Below are positions 18,948 to 26,826 of a DNA stretch of 64,000 nucleotides, in pieces; within the stretch, counting starts at the first letter, position 1, and each line of letters opens with the position of its first letter. The stretch lies in NCBI RefSeq assembly GCF_015070875.1, contig NZ_JADDIV010000004.1:682001-746000 (forward strand), written 5' to 3'. The stretch is from Ramlibacter pallidus. Its GTDB lineage: Bacteria > Pseudomonadota > Gammaproteobacteria > Burkholderiales > Burkholderiaceae_C. The translations under genes and the position numbers were made by a program. The notes under the pieces are model-generated. The model ran no database searches and had not been told where the DNA came from. It saw only the letters and a list, made by a program, of their open reading frames with translations.

Positions 18948-19224
18948 AGTGCTCCACCACGGGCGGCTGCGCGAAGAGCGGCCCGACGATGGCGCGCCAC
19001 TCGGCGAACAGCGGGCTCTGGCGGAAGCCGACGGTGTGCGCCTCCAGCGTGTCCCACTCGATCATCAGGACGTAGCGCTCCGGCGACTCGATGCCTTTCT
19101 GCACCTGGAACCGCCGCACGCCCTGTGCGCGCGAAATGACGGTGCGCAGGCCCTTCTCGATGGCGGCGTCGAATTCCGGCTGCTTGCCCGGCGGGATGCG
19201 GATGTCGGCGATTTCCAGGACCAT
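18925..19224 (-). CDS. ABM-fold small protein (antibiotic biosynthesis monooxygenase-like)
   Basis: 99 residues, MVLEIADIRIPPGKQPEFDA start preceded by AAGGAG 8 bases upstream. It is a dimeric ferredoxin-like alpha/beta barrel of the ABM type (FQVQKGIESPERYVLMIEWD, VGFRQSPLFAEWRAIVGP). Members range from quinone-forming monooxygenases to proteins of unknown role; no function can be assigned here. It overlaps the 3' end of the MarR gene tail to tail. Confidence 0.8.
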   Translation of the reverse strand: MVLEIADIRIPPGKQPEFDAAIEKGLRTVISRAQGVRRFQVQKGIESPERYVLMIEWDTLEAHTVGFRQSPLFAEWRAIVGPLFAQPPVVEHFTQVVAG

Positions 19225-19336
19225 GCGTGAACTCCTTCGTGGCGGCGGGCGCAGTCTAACGGTAAGCGAACGCAACGGACGTGCCTCCAGTCACACTGCG
19301 CGCTATCTTCGGCGTTCCAAACGGAAGGAGAGAACC

Positions 19337-19987
19337 ATGAAGAAGATCCACATCGCCGCCGCCGCACTGGGAGCGGCTTCCCTGCTGGCAGGTTGCGCCG
19401 GCCAGCAGATGAGCGAGACCGGCCGGAACACCGCGATCGGCGCCGGCATCGGCGCGCTCGCGGGCGCGGCGATCGGCGGCAACGCGAAGGGCGCGCTGAT
19501 CGGTGCCGGCGTCGGCGCCGCGGGCGGCTACATCTGGTCGCAGCACATGGAGCAGAAGAAGCAGGCGATGCAGCGCGCCACCATGGGCAGCGGCGTCGCC
19601 GTGGTGCAGACCCCCGACAACCAGCTGAAGCTGGAAGTGCCCAGCGACGTCTCGTTCGCCGTGGGGCGCGCCGACATCAACCCGCGCATGCGGCCCATCC
19701 TCGACCAGTTCGCCAGCGGCCTCGCGCAGCAGCAGGGCACCGAGGTGCGGATCATCGGCCACACCGACAACACCGGCAGCGACGAGCTGAACAACCGCCT
19801 GTCGCTGGACCGCGCGCAGTCCGTGCGCGACTACCTCCTGTCGCGCGGCGTGCGGGCGGATTCGGTGCAGATCGCCGGCCGCGGCGAGCGCGAGCCGGTC
19901 GCGGAGAACACGACCGAGGCCGGCCGTGCGAAGAACCGCCGCGTGGAGATCTTCCTGGGCGAGCGTGCCAACGTGGCCGCGCGCTGA
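19337..19987 (+). CDS. OmpA-family outer-membrane lipoprotein
   Basis: 216 residues. Lipoprotein signal peptide with lipobox LLAGC, a glycine-zipper segment (about 35-68; IGAGIGALAGAAIGG, LIGAGVGAAGGY) and a C-terminal OmpA peptidoglycan-binding domain (about 100-210; IIGHTDNTGSDELNNRLSLD, GRGEREPVAENTTEAGRAKN, NRRVEIFL). Similar to YiaD-type lipoproteins that tie the outer membrane to the wall. GGAAGGAG at 19323-19330 marks the start. Confidence 0.93.
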   Translation: MKKIHIAAAALGAASLLAGCAGQQMSETGRNTAIGAGIGALAGAAIGGNAKGALIGAGVGAAGGYIWSQHMEQKKQAMQRATMGSGVAVVQTPDNQLKLEVPSDVSFAVGRADINPRMRPILDQFASGLAQQQGTEVRIIGHTDNTGSDELNNRLSLDRAQSVRDYLLSRGVRADSVQIAGRGEREPVAENTTEAGRAKNRRVEIFLGERANVAAR

Positions 19988-19999
19988 GCGGGCCAGCGC

Positions 20000-20323
20000 C
20001 TAGTACTGCGTGGGCGGCAGGTCCACCGTGAGCCCGTCGAGGGCCGCGGTGAGCTCCACCTGGCAGCTCAGGCGGCTGTTCGGCCGGCGCTCGGCCGCGG
20101 CGAACTCCAGCATGCCGAGTTCGTCCGGGCCGGGCGGCGGCAATTGCGCCGCGAACGGTTCGCGCACGTAGACGTGGCAGGTGGCGCAGGTCAGCAGGCC
20201 GCCGCAGTCGGCCGCGATCCCGTCGACGTTGTGCTTCACGGCAGCCTCCATCAGGCTGCCGGCGGGCTTCACTTCCAGGGCGGTCTCGGCGCCGTCCGGC
20301 GCCACCAGGTGGATCTTGATCAT
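20000..20323 (-). CDS. 2Fe-2S ferredoxin
   Basis: 107 residues. A plant/adrenodoxin-type ferredoxin: the cluster cysteines are in ADCGGLLTCATCHVYV, with the fourth in RLSCQVEL. It lies last in a three-gene operon with a Rieske oxygenase, so it is the likely electron donor; no ferredoxin reductase is encoded nearby. Start ATG 20323 overlaps the stop of the ligase gene by one base (TGATG), indicating coupling. Confidence 0.9.
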   Translation of the reverse strand: MIKIHLVAPDGAETALEVKPAGSLMEAAVKHNVDGIAADCGGLLTCATCHVYVREPFAAQLPPPGPDELGMLEFAAAERRPNSRLSCQVELTAALDGLTVDLPPTQY

Positions 20324-21801
20324 CAGAATCGGGCGAAGTATTCGCGCCGCTGGAACGCGTCGCGGTCCTCGGCGGCGTCGAAGCGCTGCTGCTCGGAGCG
20401 CTTGATGCGGGTGAAGTAGTCGATGAAGCCGCGGCCGAAGGCCTCGCACAGCACGGCGTCCGACTCCAGCGCGGCGAGCGCCTCGCCGAGGCTGGTGGGC
20501 AGGCGTTCGCCGGCGCCGGCATAGGGCGCGTCGGTCGCGGGCGGGGCCTTCAGCCCGCGCGCGATGCCGTCCAGGCCGGCATGGACCTGGGAGGCGAGGT
20601 ACAGGTAGGGGTTTGCGGCCGGCTCGCCGATGCGGTTCTCGATGCGCGTGCCTTCGTCTCCGCAGGCACCGACCACCCGCAGCATCGCCCCGCGGTTGTC
20701 ACGCCCCCACAGCACCGATTGCGGCGCGAGCGCGTTCGGGCGGAAGCGGCCGAAGCCGTTCGCCGTCGGCGTGCAGAACACGGCCATCCCGCGGGCATGC
20801 GCGAGCAGCCCGGCGAGGTATTGCTCGCCGAGGGTGGACAGGGTGTGGCCCGCGTGGGAGCCGTCCGTGCCGGGCGCCGGCTGCTCGCGGCGGAACACGT
20901 TGCGGCCGGTGCGGCCATCCACCAGCGACTGGTGCAGGTGCCAGCCGCTGGACATGATGTTCGGGAACGGCGGCCGGCACATGAAGGTAGCGTGGTAGCC
21001 GGCGCGGCGCAACGCCATCTTCACGGCATTGCGGAACAGCACCATGTTGTCGGCGGCGGTCACCGCATCGGTCGCGTCGAACACCGCCTCCACCTGGCTG
21101 GGACCCAGCTCGACCTCCAGCGACAGCAGCGGCAGGCCCAGGGCCTGGGCCGTGTGCTGCACGATCCGCAGCGGCTCTTCCGCCAGGTCGTACCAGCTTT
21201 CCGCCAGCAGGTTGTAGCCGGGATGGACCAGGCTGACGGCGGGAGGCGGCCCGGGCCAGTCCGCCTCCATCGGGTCCAGTTGGGGCCGCGCATCGTCGAT
21301 GCGGTAGATGTGGAACTCGACCTCCAGCCCGCACTTCATCGCGAGGCCCGCGGCATCCAGCTTCGCCAGCGCGCGCTGCAGCACGCGCCGCGTGTCCAGT
21401 TCCACCGGCGTGCCGTCCTCGAAGTACGGCTGCGCCCGCAGCCAGCCCGTCGACGGCGTCCAGGGCAACTGGCGGAAGCTGTCCGGATCGGCCAGCAGCA
21501 GGAGGTTGTTGGCGAAGCCGAAGCCCGGCAGCGAGGCCGTCCCGCCCGGCTCGAAGACCTTGAACGCGGTGCGGTCCGAGGTGTCCTTGAGCATCAGCGT
21601 GCTGACCATGCCGACGCCCTCGCGCATCGCCTTGGCCGCGGCCGAGGCCACGAGGGTCTTGCCGCGCTGGAAGCCGTGCAGGTCGCACCAGGCGAAGCGC
21701 ACCAGCTCCAGGCCCTGCGCCTCGAGCAGCCGGCCGACGCGCGCGACCGCCTGTTCGCGCGCCGCGTCGTGGATGCCGCAGCGCTCGGCGAAGGAACTCA
21801 C
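20323..21801 (-). CDS. glutamine synthetase-like ligase
   Basis: 492 residues, GTG start overlapping the Rieske gene stop by four bases. The GS catalytic core is recognisable (MKCGLEVEFHIYR metal site, SLEVELGPSQVEAVFDATDA, GWHLHQSLVDGRTG with the catalytic His region, RPNALAPQSVLWGRDNR, RIENRIGEPAANPYLYLASQ). The N-terminal beta-grasp is divergent (MSSFAERCGIHD, WCDLHGFQRGKTL). Such paralogues gamma-glutamylate amines (as in aniline or polyamine catabolism) rather than ammonia. Context with an oxygenase suggests activation of an amine substrate before oxidation; the substrate is unknown. Confidence 0.85.
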   Translation of the reverse strand: MSSFAERCGIHDAAREQAVARVGRLLEAQGLELVRFAWCDLHGFQRGKTLVASAAAKAMREGVGMVSTLMLKDTSDRTAFKVFEPGGTASLPGFGFANNLLLLADPDSFRQLPWTPSTGWLRAQPYFEDGTPVELDTRRVLQRALAKLDAAGLAMKCGLEVEFHIYRIDDARPQLDPMEADWPGPPPAVSLVHPGYNLLAESWYDLAEEPLRIVQHTAQALGLPLLSLEVELGPSQVEAVFDATDAVTAADNMVLFRNAVKMALRRAGYHATFMCRPPFPNIMSSGWHLHQSLVDGRTGRNVFRREQPAPGTDGSHAGHTLSTLGEQYLAGLLAHARGMAVFCTPTANGFGRFRPNALAPQSVLWGRDNRGAMLRVVGACGDEGTRIENRIGEPAANPYLYLASQVHAGLDGIARGLKAPPATDAPYAGAGERLPTSLGEALAALESDAVLCEAFGRGFIDYFTRIKRSEQQRFDAAEDRDAFQRREYFARF

Positions 21802-23186
21802 GAGGCCTGGGCCTCGGCGGGCGCGATGGCCTGCCGCAGCCAGGGCGCGCCGGCGCGCTTGGCCTGCACCTTCTCCTGCCACCACGTGCCCCACGCACCG
21901 GCGGGCGCGATGCCGTCGACGGTGTCCGGGCCGCGCATCTCGGCCGCGAGGGCCGGATCGGCCACGCCCGGCGCCGTGCCGCCCGCCTGCACCGTCTCGA
22001 TGGCCTGGAGCAGCATGCGCCGGTTGGCCATGATCACCTTGTCGCTGGTGCCCAGGTGTTCGCGCGTGCGATCCTGGATGGGGCCCATGCTCTCCACGGC
22101 CCACTGGTCGTGCACGTTGATGTCTTCCTCGCCCATGCCCAGGTAGGTCTGCGCGCGCTGCTCGTCGGGGTTGAAGCCCCAGTGGTTGTGGCGCCCGTTC
22201 TTCGGCACGTAGTCGGGCAGCGAAATGAACTGCAGGCGCTGGCTGCGCATGGCGTCCTTGTCGACCGGGCCGGCGAAGCTGGTGAAGAAGGAGTACCAGT
22301 AGGTGCGGGTGTCGTCCACCGGGACGTGCATCTGCGTGATCGTCAGCGTCTCGGACAGCGGGATCACGAAGGTGTGCGGGAAGATCGCGTGGGTGATCCG
22401 CACGTGGGTGAGTTCGTCGGTCATGGGGCGCAGCGCGGTCAGCTGCAGTCCCCACGGCTTGGTCGCGAACGAGATGTCCGGCTGGTGGAACTCGCGCATG
22501 ATGCGCGTCATCGGCCATTTCTCGCCGCCGAAGTCCCCCGCGCTGGCACTGCGGAACTGCCGGCCCGCCGCGTTCTCGCCGACGGCCTCCAGCGCCGCGT
22601 CGCTCAGGAAGCGGTGCAGGAAGGACGGATGCGCGGGGTCGATGCCGACTTCGAAGGCCTGCAGCCAGTTGGCCTGCCACAGGCCCTTGAAGGCGAAGGT
22701 ATGGCTGTCGGGCGCGGCGAAGCAGTCGAACGCGGGGAAGGGCGGCGCCTTGCCTTCGTCGCCGAACCACGCGAAGAGCACGCCGCTCTTTTCCACGACC
22801 GGGTAGCTGCGCTGCTTCACGCGTTCGCACAGCTTGCTGCCGGTCGGCTCCGCCGGCGTTTCCAGGCAGCGGCCGGTCGCGTCGAACTTCCAGCCGTGGA
22901 AGGGGCAGCGCAGGCCGTCGCCTTCGTGCCGGCCGAAGGAGAGGTCGGCATTGCGGTGCGGGCAGTCGCGATCCAGCAGGCCCCAGCGGCCGGCCGCGTC
23001 GCGGAACAGCACGAGGTCCTGGCCGAGCACGCGGACGGCCTTCACCGGGCGGTCCTTCATGCGGGGATCCAGCCCCGGGTCGAATTCGTCCACCAGCGCC
23101 ACCGGCTGCCAGTAGGCCCGCAGCACCGCGCCGCACGGCGTGCCGGGGCCGACGCGGGTGATCAGTTCGTTCTGTTCCGCCTTCAT
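21798..23186 (-). CDS. Rieske non-heme iron oxygenase, alpha-only type
   Basis: 462 residues. The Rieske centre (CPHRNADLSF...RCPFHGW, a C-x-H and C-x2-H pair) lies near residue 75-100, and the mononuclear iron ligands are in FEVGIDPAHPSFLHRFL. The overall layout resembles phthalate 4,5-dioxygenase-type oxygenases. There is no beta subunit gene. The start ATG 23186 has GGAGG 9 bases upstream. It is first in an operon with a GS-like ligase and a ferredoxin. The substrate is not known; the aniline-dioxygenase logic (ligase plus Rieske enzyme) is a comparison, not an identification. Confidence 0.87.
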   Translation of the reverse strand: MKAEQNELITRVGPGTPCGAVLRAYWQPVALVDEFDPGLDPRMKDRPVKAVRVLGQDLVLFRDAAGRWGLLDRDCPHRNADLSFGRHEGDGLRCPFHGWKFDATGRCLETPAEPTGSKLCERVKQRSYPVVEKSGVLFAWFGDEGKAPPFPAFDCFAAPDSHTFAFKGLWQANWLQAFEVGIDPAHPSFLHRFLSDAALEAVGENAAGRQFRSASAGDFGGEKWPMTRIMREFHQPDISFATKPWGLQLTALRPMTDELTHVRITHAIFPHTFVIPLSETLTITQMHVPVDDTRTYWYSFFTSFAGPVDKDAMRSQRLQFISLPDYVPKNGRHNHWGFNPDEQRAQTYLGMGEEDINVHDQWAVESMGPIQDRTREHLGTSDKVIMANRRMLLQAIETVQAGGTAPGVADPALAAEMRGPDTVDGIAPAGAWGTWWQEKVQAKRAGAPWLRQAIAPAEAQAS

Positions 23187-23265
23187 CCTGGGATCCTCCG
23201 CGGCACGACTGCAGCCGCTGCGGGACCAGTTTACCCGCCGGTGCCGCGCGACGCCGGCCGGGGCG

Positions 23266-24222
23266 TCAGGTGGCGACGGAGAGCGGCACGTCCCCCACGC
23301 GATGCCACGCAGGCACGGCGCGATCCGGGAAGTCCGCAGCGAGCGGCTGGGGCGTCTCGGGAAAGGCGCGGCGCAGCAGCCCGGTGAGCAGCGCATCGTC
23401 GCGGCCGAGTGCGCTGCGCAAGGCCTGGCGCGCCTGGCCCAGGTGCGCGTCGACGGAGCGGCGCACGGCGTCGGCGCCCAGCAACTGCACGACGGTGCTC
23501 TTGCCCGCATCCTGCAGCGGGTCCTCGCGGCCCTCGCCGGCGGGCAGCAGGTCCTCGAGGTCGTCGCGCAGCTGGAAGGCCTGGCCGATCGCCAGCGCCG
23601 CGCGGCGCAGGTCGGGCACCGCGCGGGCGCGGCCGGCGGCGCAGGCCGAGAGTTCGAGGGCCGCGGCGAACAGCACCCCGGTCTTCTGGTCGTTGGTCTC
23701 CGCCGCCGCCGCGGCGCTGCGGGCGCCGGCGCCTTCGTGCAGGTCGCGGTACTGCCCGCGGACCAGGCCGAGCGGGCCGACCGCCTCGCACAGGACCTGC
23801 ACCGCCCGCGCCCGGGCCGGCGCGCGCAGGGCGGGCGCGCTGGCCGCGACGCGGCAGGCTTCGGAGACCAGCGCCACCGCGGCCAGCATCGCCACGTCCT
23901 CGCCGAAGCGCAGGTGCACGGTGGGCTGGCCGCGCCGCAGGCGGGCGTCGTCCATGGCGGGCATGTCGTCCAGGACCAGGGACGCGCAATGGATCATTTC
24001 CACGGCACAGGCGAAATCGAGCAGCCCCGGTCCGCGCGCGCCGAGAGCTTCGCCCACGGCCAGGACCAGCAGCGGGCGCAGCCGCTTGCCCGGCGTGAGC
24101 ACCGCCGCCTGCATGGCGCCGGCCACGCCGGCGGCTTCGGCCGGCAGGAGCGCGGCGAGGCGGCGCTCGACGGCACGGCGCCACTGGGCCAGCGCGTCGT
24201 CCGGCTGGAAAGCTGTACTCAT
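23266..24222 (-). CDS. crtE: geranylgeranyl diphosphate synthase
   Basis: 318-residue polyprenyl synthase making the C20 precursor of carotenoids. First aspartate motif in ASLVLDDMPAMDDARLRRG, second in FQLRDDLEDL. The residues before the first motif (HCASLVL) resemble CrtE rather than IspA, which has an aromatic there. ATG 24222 has AGGAG 7 bases upstream and is preferred to TTG 24228. It is transcribed away from crtX-Y-I-B across a 136-base AT-rich promoter region. Confidence 0.9.
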   Translation of the reverse strand: MSTAFQPDDALAQWRRAVERRLAALLPAEAAGVAGAMQAAVLTPGKRLRPLLVLAVGEALGARGPGLLDFACAVEMIHCASLVLDDMPAMDDARLRRGQPTVHLRFGEDVAMLAAVALVSEACRVAASAPALRAPARARAVQVLCEAVGPLGLVRGQYRDLHEGAGARSAAAAAETNDQKTGVLFAAALELSACAAGRARAVPDLRRAALAIGQAFQLRDDLEDLLPAGEGREDPLQDAGKSTVVQLLGADAVRRSVDAHLGQARQALRSALGRDDALLTGLLRRAFPETPQPLAADFPDRAVPAWHRVGDVPLSVAT

Positions 24223-24358
24223 CCGCAACTCCTGGGCAACGCGCCCTGATGGACCGGCAGGTTAGCGCCGTGGAGGTCAAACCGGAAGCATTTGGATCAG
24301 TTATGGCATTTGTCCTACAACAAAAAAGAAACCGGCTGCTACCTTCGCCTTGTTCCCC
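24223..24358. promoter_or_regulatory. divergent crtE/crtX promoter region
   Basis: The stretch 24281-24335 is markedly AT-rich (CATTTGGATCAGTTATGGC and CAACAAAAAAGAAACC) against GC-rich surroundings. A plausible forward promoter is TTGGAT (24292-24297) with TACAAC (24316-24321), spacing 18. No firm operator palindrome, such as a LitR/CarH site, was recognised. Confidence 0.45.
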
Positions 24359-25663
24359 GTGACCCATTTCGTCGTCCTCGCCCCTCCCTTCCCGAGCCAC
24401 GTCCGGGCCATCGAAGCCCTGGCCAGCGTGTTGCTCGATCGCGGCCATCGCGTGACCTGGGTGCACCAGCCGGAGGTCAGGGCCTTGCTGCGCGAGCCGC
24501 GCATCGGCTTCGAGCCCGTCGGGGAGATGGAGCCCGGCGCGTTGGCCGCGCTGGTCGACCGCGCTGCGCGGCCCGGCGGTCCCGTCGGCCTGTCACGGGT
24601 GATCCGCGACGTGGCGGACGGTACCGACCTGCTGTGCCGCGAAGCGCCGGCGGTGCTGCGCCGCGTGGGCGCGCAGGCCGTGATCGCCGACGAGATGGAG
24701 GCAGCCGGCGGGCTGGTCGCGCGCGGCCTGGGCCTGCCCTACGTTTCCGTCGCGTGCGCGCTGCCGGTGGCACGGGATCCGCGGGTGCCGCTGCCGGTGA
24801 TGCACTGGGGGCTCGCGCGGGACGAGACGGGCCTGCATCTCAACCTGCACAGCACGCGCGTGTACGACTGGCTGATGCGGCCGCACGCCCGCGTGATCGA
24901 ACGCCACGCAGCCGCCTTCGACCTGCCGCCGCTGCATTCACTGGCCGACTGCGTGTCGCCCCTGGCGATCCTGAGCCAGACGGCCGCCGCCTTCGATTTC
25001 CCCCGCACGGCGCCGCCGCCGCAGTTGCACCATGTCGGCCCCTTGCGTGTGGACACCGGGCAGGAGGCACCGGCCTGGCCGGCCGCCTGGACGCCGCCCC
25101 CCGGCCGGCCGTTCGTCTTCGCGTCGCTGGGCACCCTGCAGGGCGGGCGCTTCGGCCTGCTGCGCCGCATCGCCCGCGCCTGCCACGCCGAAGGCGCCAC
25201 GCTGCTGCTGGCGCATTGCGATCGCCTGGATGCCGGGCAGGCGCGCGCACTGGAGTACGCCGGCGCGACCTGGGTCACCGGATTCGCCCCGCAGCAGGAG
25301 GCCATCGCCCGGGCGGACGCGGTGGTCACGCACGCGGGGCTGAACACCGTGATGGACGCGCTGGTCGCCGGCAAGCCGATGGTGCTGCTGCCGATCGCTT
25401 TCGACCAGCCGGGCGTCGCGGCCCGCGTCGTCCATGCGGGAGCGGGCGTGCGCGTGCTGCCGCCGCTGGCCACCGTGTCGGCGCTGCGGCGCGCGCTGCG
25501 CCAGATCCTGGAAGATCGCCTGTACGCACAGCGCGCGCAGGCCTTGGGCGAGCAGGTGCGTGCGGCGGGCGGCGCCCGACGGGCGGCCGACATCATCGAA
25601 TCTGTGCTGCCCGCGCCGGTGTCCCGCGACCGGGCCGGGACGATGGCGGGAGCCCTTGCGTGA
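24359..25663 (+). CDS. crtX: zeaxanthin glucosyltransferase
   Basis: 434-residue GT1-family UDP-glycosyltransferase that attaches sugar to carotenoid hydroxyls. N-terminal MTHFVVLAPPFPSHVRAIEA and C-terminal donor-site segment (PFVFASLGTLQGGR, ADAVVTHAGLNTVMDAL, KPMVLLPIAFDQPGVAARV). Its place between crtE and crtY is the same as in Pantoea. GTG 24359 is chosen; TTG 24350 is possible, and neither has a clear Shine-Dalgarno. The stop overlaps crtY by four bases. Confidence 0.88.
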   Translation: MTHFVVLAPPFPSHVRAIEALASVLLDRGHRVTWVHQPEVRALLREPRIGFEPVGEMEPGALAALVDRAARPGGPVGLSRVIRDVADGTDLLCREAPAVLRRVGAQAVIADEMEAAGGLVARGLGLPYVSVACALPVARDPRVPLPVMHWGLARDETGLHLNLHSTRVYDWLMRPHARVIERHAAAFDLPPLHSLADCVSPLAILSQTAAAFDFPRTAPPPQLHHVGPLRVDTGQEAPAWPAAWTPPPGRPFVFASLGTLQGGRFGLLRRIARACHAEGATLLLAHCDRLDAGQARALEYAGATWVTGFAPQQEAIARADAVVTHAGLNTVMDALVAGKPMVLLPIAFDQPGVAARVVHAGAGVRVLPPLATVSALRRALRQILEDRLYAQRAQALGEQVRAAGGARRAADIIESVLPAPVSRDRAGTMAGALA

Positions 25664-26826
25664 ACGACGCCGACCTGGTCCTCGTCGGTGGCGGGCTGGC
25701 GAACGGCCTCATCGCCTGGCGGCTGCGGCAGTTGCGTCCGGACCTGCGCGTCCTCGTGCTGGAGGCCGGCCCGAGCGCCGGCGGCAACCACACCTGGTCT
25801 TTCCACGCGACCGACCTGGAGGACGCGCAGCAGGCGTGGCTGGCGCCTTTGGTCGCCCATCGCTGGGCCTCGCATGCCGTGCGCTTTCCTGCGCTGCAGC
25901 GGCATCTGCGGGGCGGCTATGCCAGCATCACCTCGGCCCGCTTCGACGAGGTGCTGCGGCGCGACCTGGGCGCGTCGCTGCGGCCCGGTGTGCGCGTCCT
26001 GGACGTCCGCCCGCAGGAGGTCACGCTGGACGACGGCAGCACCTTGCGCGCCGGCGCCGTGATCGACGGCCGGGGGCGCCTGCCCGAAGCGGGCATCCGC
26101 CTGGGCTGGCAGAAGTTCATCGGCCGCGAGTTCCGGCTCGAAGGCGACCATGGGCTCGACGGCCCGGTGCTGATGGATGCGACGGTCCCCCAGCGCGACG
26201 GCTACCGTTTCGTCTACACCTTGCCGCTGGACGCGCGCACGGTGCTGGTCGAGGACACCTACTACGCCGACGGAGCGGCGCTGGAGCCCGATCGCGTGCG
26301 GCGCGACATCGATGCTTATGTGCAGGCCCAGGGCTGGCGCACGGGCGAGCTGCTGCGCGAAGAGCAGGGCGTGCTGCCGATCGTGCTGGACGGCGATCCG
26401 CGCGTGCTCTGGGACGCCGCCGGTGGCGTGCCCCGCACCGGGCTTTCCGCGGCACTGTTCCACCCCACCACGGGCTATTCGCTGCCCGATGCGGTGCGGG
26501 TCGCCGACCTCGTTGCGCGGCTGCCGGACCTCCGCGCGGGCGCGCTGTTCGCCGCCTTGCGCGGCCATGCCCTCGCGCAATGGCGCGACCAGGCCTTCTT
26601 CCGCCTGCTCAATCGCATGCTGTTCCAGGCCGCCGTGCCGACGGAGCGCTGGCGCGTGATGCAGCGGTTCTACGGACTGCCGGAACCGCTGGTCGCGCGC
26701 TTCTACGCGGGCCGGCCGACGCTGGCCGACAAGCTGCGCATCGTCAGCGGCAAGCCGCCGGTGCCCCTGGCCGCGGCGTTGCAGGCAGCATTGGGGCGCC
26801 GGGCCCCCACGGAGAGCTTCACATGA
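25660..26826 (+). CDS. crtY: lycopene beta-cyclase
   Basis: 388 residues, GTG start within the crtX stop (GTGA). Converts lycopene to beta-carotene at the membrane. The CrtY N-terminal flavin motif is DADLVLVGGGLANGLIAWRL; further family segments are GGNHTWSFHATDL, LMDATVPQRDGYRFVYTLPL, VEDTYYAD and FHPTTGYSLPDAVRVADLVA. Full length for the gammaproteobacterial-type enzyme. Confidence 0.92.
   Translation: MNDADLVLVGGGLANGLIAWRLRQLRPDLRVLVLEAGPSAGGNHTWSFHATDLEDAQQAWLAPLVAHRWASHAVRFPALQRHLRGGYASITSARFDEVLRRDLGASLRPGVRVLDVRPQEVTLDDGSTLRAGAVIDGRGRLPEAGIRLGWQKFIGREFRLEGDHGLDGPVLMDATVPQRDGYRFVYTLPLDARTVLVEDTYYADGAALEPDRVRRDIDAYVQAQGWRTGELLREEQGVLPIVLDGDPRVLWDAAGGVPRTGLSAALFHPTTGYSLPDAVRVADLVARLPDLRAGALFAALRGHALAQWRDQAFFRLLNRMLFQAAVPTERWRVMQRFYGLPEPLVARFYAGRPTLADKLRIVSGKPPVPLAAALQAALGRRAPTESFT

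Follow-up and report, generated by a model that had tools for sequence, protein, structure and literature searches.

The sad operon of Hydrogenophaga, which came from transposon mutagenesis, encodes a Rieske oxygenase, a glutamine synthetase (GS)-like protein, and a ferredoxin, is reported to convert 4-aminobenzenesulfonate to 4-sulfocatechol, and was fairly conserved in the Hydrogenophaga genomes reported at that time (PMC5632844). The same oxygenase/GS-like pairing occurs in Novosphingobium Rr 2-17 (PMC3704786), and both papers leave open the natural substrate of this oxygenase group. We analyzed a 64,000-nucleotide stretch of the Ramlibacter pallidus genome (contig NZ_JADDIV010000004.1, positions 682,001 to 746,000; hereafter the window) that contains three genes matching in kind and order those which make up sad in Hydrogenophaga intermedia PBC: a SadA-type Rieske oxygenase, a SadB-type GS-like ligase, and a ferredoxin (Table 1). 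Since SadD also occurs as a name in PMC5632844, the third gene is called here simply the ferredoxin. The evidence tips somewhat toward a chromosomal sad-type operon that would serve to degrade an anionic para-amino-aromatic acid aerobically, with 4-aminobenzoate as the most likely natural substrate.

Two other groups of described systems bear on the trio. Phthalate-dioxygenase-type enzymes, which are alpha-only oxygenases, are known for oxygenating free aromatic acids without a ligase; the window oxygenase belongs to the same family, its closest solved relatives being 7fjl, 7fhr, and 9ina (E values 1e-54 to 1e-59). The aniline, chloroaniline, and 1-naphthylamine systems (AtdA, TdnQTA, DcaQTA, and NpaA1-A5) resemble the window in coupling a GS-like ligase to a Rieske oxygenase, but differ from it in having an alpha-beta oxygenase and, usually, an adjacent amidotransferase or hydrolase together with a reductase. 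The subunit type, the partner genes, and the tree all speak against placing the window trio in an aniline system, and that reading was rejected. In the naphthylamine system, NpaA1 is a gamma-glutamyl-arylamide synthase, the dioxygenase then acts on the amide, and the NpaA2 amidotransferase is dispensable (PMC11335346).

Make-up and conservation of the gene trio

By sequence, the window trio is a sad-type operon, known in make-up and order, and the arrangement is not novel; because it shares the make-up of a known operon, its substrate class is partly known. The corresponding trio of H. intermedia MER 62 (locus L061, genome G783), which we identify with sad because species and gene order agree and no other such trio was found, is identical to that of the window at 70% (Rieske oxygenase), 66% (ligase), and 61% (ferredoxin) of positions, and the two ligases share a 23-row clade with a Shimodaira-Hasegawa-like approximate likelihood ratio (SH-aLRT) support of 100. 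The only other ligase of comparable score in MER 62 is DcaQ, 99.8% identical to Variovorax DcaQ of chloroaniline breakdown, whose gene adjoins those of an amidotransferase and an aniline-type oxygenase (L180, 6444-10061).

The trio carries the Pfam families PF00355 (Rieske) and PF19301 (LigXa_C), PF00120 (Gln-synt_C), and PF00111 (Fer2). A beta-subunit gene is absent from the three-gene unit, and the combination of Rieske and LigXa_C domains is the alpha-only, phthalate-type pattern. A preliminary description of the window had reported this trio with overlaps of four and one bases, and its coordinates proved exact: the Rieske and ligase genes overlap by 4 base pairs (bp; GTGA) and the ligase and ferredoxin genes by 1 bp (TGATG). 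It had also found neither an amidase nor a reductase in the unit, which holds for the window. Its suggestion of an alpha-only, phthalate-type unit for amine activation and oxygenation fits the closest solved relatives of both enzymes and the replaced ammonium-site Glu described below, although it missed the sad operon.

To gauge conservation we took as a core set the top 80 among 518 confirmed ligase relatives (81 loci in the core surveys); as these are the closest relatives, the figures overstate conservation. A Rieske match adjoins the ligase gene in 80 of the 80 core loci, although the match is fragmentary at the contig end in L063, L072, and L083 and split over two frames in L032; separation of the genes in close relatives, which the preliminary description had named as evidence against its proposal, was not seen for this pair. 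With script-chosen starts, the Rieske-ligase spacing lies between -60 and +200 bp in 79/80 loci, the genes overlap in 75/80, and the overlap is exactly 4 bp in 67/80. A ferredoxin gene follows on the same strand at a distance of at most 200 bp in 69/80 (1-bp overlap in 11 of these 69), and a ferredoxin match is missing in 11/80; L078 is truncated by its contig end. The gene trio is no chance arrangement.

The closest named ligases among the confirmed relatives are from Ramlibacter and a Comamonadaceae bacterium. A ligase was found at E ≤ 1e-80 in 21 of 25 genus genomes (own genome included; two as fragments), at E ≤ 1e-180 in 38 of 299 family genomes, at 1e-80 in 9 of 369 class genomes, and at 1e-60 in 20 of 398 phylum genomes. 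Another 37, remoter loci (ligase mostly 37-52% identical) also carry a SadA-type Rieske match in their stretch; Rieske-ligase adjacency holds for most of these, in Alpha- and Betaproteobacteria, and in L121, L122, L123, and L142 the Rieske match lies on the opposite strand or some kilobases (kb) from the ligase. The trio is ordinary in kind and well conserved, and the 4-aminobenzoate proposal developed below is specific and testable.

Gamma-glutamylation as the probable first step

The best-supported mechanism in our analysis would be gamma-glutamylation of the amine followed by dihydroxylation with loss of glutamine, for which the NpaA1 precedent, the retention of sites aligned with GlnA, and a Leu at the position of StGS E327 all argue. 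By analogy with NpaA1, SadB would use ATP to link L-glutamate to the aromatic amine as a gamma-glutamyl amide, and SadA would then dihydroxylate the carbon that bears the amide and the ring carbon next to it, drawing electrons from the ferredoxin and from a reductase presumably encoded elsewhere and acting in trans. The unstable diol would lose glutamine to yield a catechol, so that no amidase would be needed; given that NpaA2 is dispensable, the absent amidase is no obstacle to this mechanism. For 4-aminobenzoate the product would be protocatechuate, and the host carries a matching 4,5-dioxygenase gene of the LigA type.

The closest solved relative of the ligase is 8wwu (E 1.5e-99; next structure 2.2e-42), which we take to be NpaA1 and whose residues, compared by eye, match the translated JS3066 gene nearly throughout; NpaA1 is 37% identical to the window ligase. 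This wide margin counts against glutamylation of an aliphatic amine or polyamine in the manner of PuuA or GmaS, coupled to a demethylase-type Rieske enzyme, as does the position far outside the clade of an own-genome paralogue that we label PuuA-like. We regard such a scheme as very improbable, even though LigXa_C oxygenases include O-demethylases and the ligase has NCBIfam matches, both far below cut-offs, to type III GS and gamma-glutamylputrescine synthetase.

Residues E160, E162, E231, E238, H288, R352, R370, R375, E388, and R390 of the ligase align with the GlnA of the same genome and presumably form, by their roles in StGS, the metal, ATP, and glutamate sites. We take the Glu-flap residue to be E327 in StGS numbering; this ammonium-site Glu is replaced by L358 in the window and by Leu, Met, or Asn in 116 of 116 ligases with a SadA-type partner. 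PMC11335346 prints the flap residue as Glu357, whose counterpart in the window is conserved (E388). S90 occupies the position of the catalytic D50 of StGS, where the alignment is uncertain. A plain GS was set aside, with a GlnA-type gene present elsewhere in the genome and the ammonium-site Glu replaced. A ligase making glutamine alone, the other refuting outcome named in the preliminary description, is likewise disfavored by these residues.

PMC3704786 hypothesizes the reverse order for SadB: hydroxylation of the free amine by the oxygenase would come first, and removal of the amino group by the GS-like protein second. That order appears improbable, because NpaA1 forms the gamma-glutamyl amide first and its dioxygenase uses that amide (PMC11335346), and because the window ligase keeps the residues aligned with the GlnA metal, ATP, and glutamate sites. 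The best match to NpaA2 in the own genome (4,310,278 bases searched) reached E 4.3e-7. In a 2012 paper on the sad genes, sadB is reportedly essential in E. coli.

Residues of the amine loop and the ligase clade

We compared 116 ligases with a SadA-type partner (window included) with 12 that have an aniline-type alpha-beta partner, the latter including two near-identical pairs. Of the 492 columns, three (T68, K72, and T78) hold residues that are kept in at least 98% of a 117-member clade and that none of the 12 aniline-type ligases has; the clade consists of the 116 and of L144, whose stretch lacks a Rieske match. All three fall inside a 14-residue loop that matches the amine-entry loop of NpaA1. 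Position 72 holds Lys in all ligases paired with a SadA-type oxygenase (116/116) and in none of the aniline type (0/12); NpaA1 has F75 there, and DcaQ of MER 62 likewise has Phe. At the R77 position, 104 of the 116 have Arg and 9 have Lys. On 1-naphthylamine the NpaA1 F75A variant retained 15-25% activity, and on aniline it was almost inactive (PMC11335346). The presence of Lys72, mostly with Arg or Lys at 77, at the place of a tunnel Phe in NpaA1 suggests that the substrate ring bears an acid group. Some clade members are as remote from the window ligase (37-42% identity) as the aniline-type ligases are (37-44%), and the loop residues therefore do not merely reflect overall similarity.

In the oxygenase, R263 aligns with R244 of 7fjl, which we take to be the carboxylate-binding Arg, and is Arg in 109 of 109 aligned relatives (rows outside 400-520 amino acids having been dropped).

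The clade of ligases with an alpha-only partner received an SH-aLRT support of 99 in a quick-mode IQ-TREE analysis, made without bootstrapping, of a 76-row subsample (20 random core rows, L061, L053, and all other rows) whose tree has two long outgroup branches; FastTree support at the clade node after rerooting was 0.171. From the 134-row ligase set we dropped L072, L078, L115, and class- and phylum-survey loci duplicated by longer stretches.

4-Aminobenzoate as the candidate natural substrate

We propose that the natural reaction is the conversion of 4-aminobenzoate to protocatechuate. The former is the carboxylate twin of the reported sad substrate, and the latter the twin of 4-sulfocatechol. 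Among the 37 remoter loci, a PnbB-family lyase (PF16155) lies in the stretch of six, five of which also hold a nitroreductase; any PnbB was found in 4 of 299 phylum genomes. An IclR-type regulator accompanies a Rieske match in 21 of 58 scanned stretches (divergent in 20, within ~620 bp in 16), and TIGR02431 (PcaR/PcaU/PobR) was the top family in 10 of 10 such regulators tested, five of them above cut-off. The Palleronia copy lies near pca genes. The own genome encodes LigA of the 4,5-dioxygenase type above cut-off; in a difference from the sad operon, no pcaH-type gene above cut-off was found in it, and other 4-sulfocatechol genes were not searched.

The same mechanism could instead serve another anionic aromatic amine, such as 3-aminobenzoate, an aminosalicylate, an aminophenylacetate, or an aromatic sulfonate. 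The family, clade, and residue evidence fits such substrates equally, the Hydrogenophaga enzyme works on a sulfonate, and regulators and transporters vary among subclades, so that substrates may vary too. We nevertheless judge this alternative rather unlikely, since, among natural compounds, 4-aminobenzoate most closely resembles the sole reported substrate and since PnbB and the PcaR/PobR-type neighbors of relatives favor it.

Several observations weigh against 4-aminobenzoate as the substrate of the window trio. The markers for it adjoin remoter relatives, and none was found in the window flanks or in the core kin: PnbB is present in 0 of 81 core stretches, and the six PnbB loci are plasmid loci of few lineages, chosen from best matches and not at random. 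PF16155 proteins occur in benzoate box operons too. A divergent GntR regulator, not of the Pca type, is found in 42 of the 81 core loci (some stretches being short); in contrast to these kin, none adjoins the window trio. LigA does not discriminate, as 23 of the 25 genus genomes have it, among them all four that lack the ligase. K72 could fit any anionic group, and since the clade is one lineage its change counts as a single event. In several relatives a flavin adenine dinucleotide (FAD) reductase gene adjoins the ferredoxin gene, which is not so in the window, and a dedicated reductase was not found in the own genome, where the best match to the FAD reductase of relatives is 34% identical over 277 amino acids. 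4-Aminobenzoate is, moreover, a folate building block. The single pabB-family match of the own genome (G000:C1:858108-859208) falls below the pabB cut-off and may be TrpE, making 4-aminobenzoate auxotrophy, or a divergent PabB, possible. H. intermedia PBC is a p-aminobenzoate auxotroph, and given this and the weak pabB match, degrading a vitamin precursor would be costly.

In a broader form, SadAB of Alpha- and Betaproteobacteria would be the missing aerobic route from 4-aminobenzoate to protocatechuate, proceeding by amide-activated dihydroxylation with K72 recognizing the acid group and with 4-aminobenzenesulfonate as a side activity on a sulfonate mimic; to this larger claim we give slightly less than even credence. 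The open-access literature searched (PMC only) contained no paper proposing 4-aminobenzoate for the SadAB group. Growth of Alcaligenes on 4-aminobenzoate has been reported, with no genes found for it (PMC6460240). The proposal links that growth to the open question of the sad substrate; if correct, it would provide a natural, not pollutant-driven, case of glutamyl-amide activation ahead of ring oxygenation, and would supply a one-residue marker that may distinguish ligases acting on acidic aromatic amines from ligases acting on neutral ones.

Feature coordinates and neighboring genes

Table 1 Features of the sad-type trio in window coordinates
Feature	Position	Strand	Remarks
SadA-type alpha-only Rieske oxygenase, 462 amino acids	21798..23186	-	ATG start; Rieske and LigXa_C domains
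SadB-type GS-like ligase, glutamyl-organic-amide synthetase relative, 492 amino acids	20323..21801	-	GTG start
2Fe-2S ferredoxin, putidaredoxin-like, 107 amino acids	20000..20323	-	Third gene of the trio
Likely Rieske-gene ribosome-binding site, GGAGG	23195..23199	-	Inspection only
Ligase amine-loop codons 65-78 (T68, K72, T78)	21568..21609	-	Aligned with NpaA1 V68-M81, motif 15
Ligase K72 codon AAG	21586..21588	-	NpaA1 F75 position; alignment
Oxygenase R263 codon CGG	22398..22400	-	Aligned with R244 of phthalate dioxygenase 7fjl

No promoter- or terminator-like consensus sites were found in positions 19900-23600. The end of a polyprenyl synthetase gene (PF00348; 23266-24228, reverse strand) lies 79 bp upstream of the Rieske gene, which has the same orientation, and a UDP-glycosyltransferase-like gene and a lycopene-cyclase-like stretch, the latter recognized by eye, occupy 24292-26826 on the opposite strand; with these neighbors, the trio adjoins an apparent carotenoid cluster. 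An OmpA-family protein with a glycine zipper (19091-19987, forward strand) is convergent with the 3' end of the trio.

The neighbors of the 81 core loci were surveyed by annotated-protein searches, clustering of open reading frames (ORFs) having yielded mostly shadow ORFs. The best fit of the L117 GntR regulator is a phosphonate-regulator model, below its cut-off. Beyond the ferredoxin gene of L035, L039, L042, L051, L058, and L071 come a weak match to an ABC ATPase and a match to an amidohydrolase. A CHMI-like small protein, PF02962 in both of two tested, is encoded next to the ligase gene or within ~6 kb of it in L120, L121, L123, L130, L143, and L150. In the rhodobacteral plasmids L121 and L123, a second Rieske-domain match adjoins the oxygenase gene, and genes for a flavodoxin-like protein and an FAD reductase lie close by.

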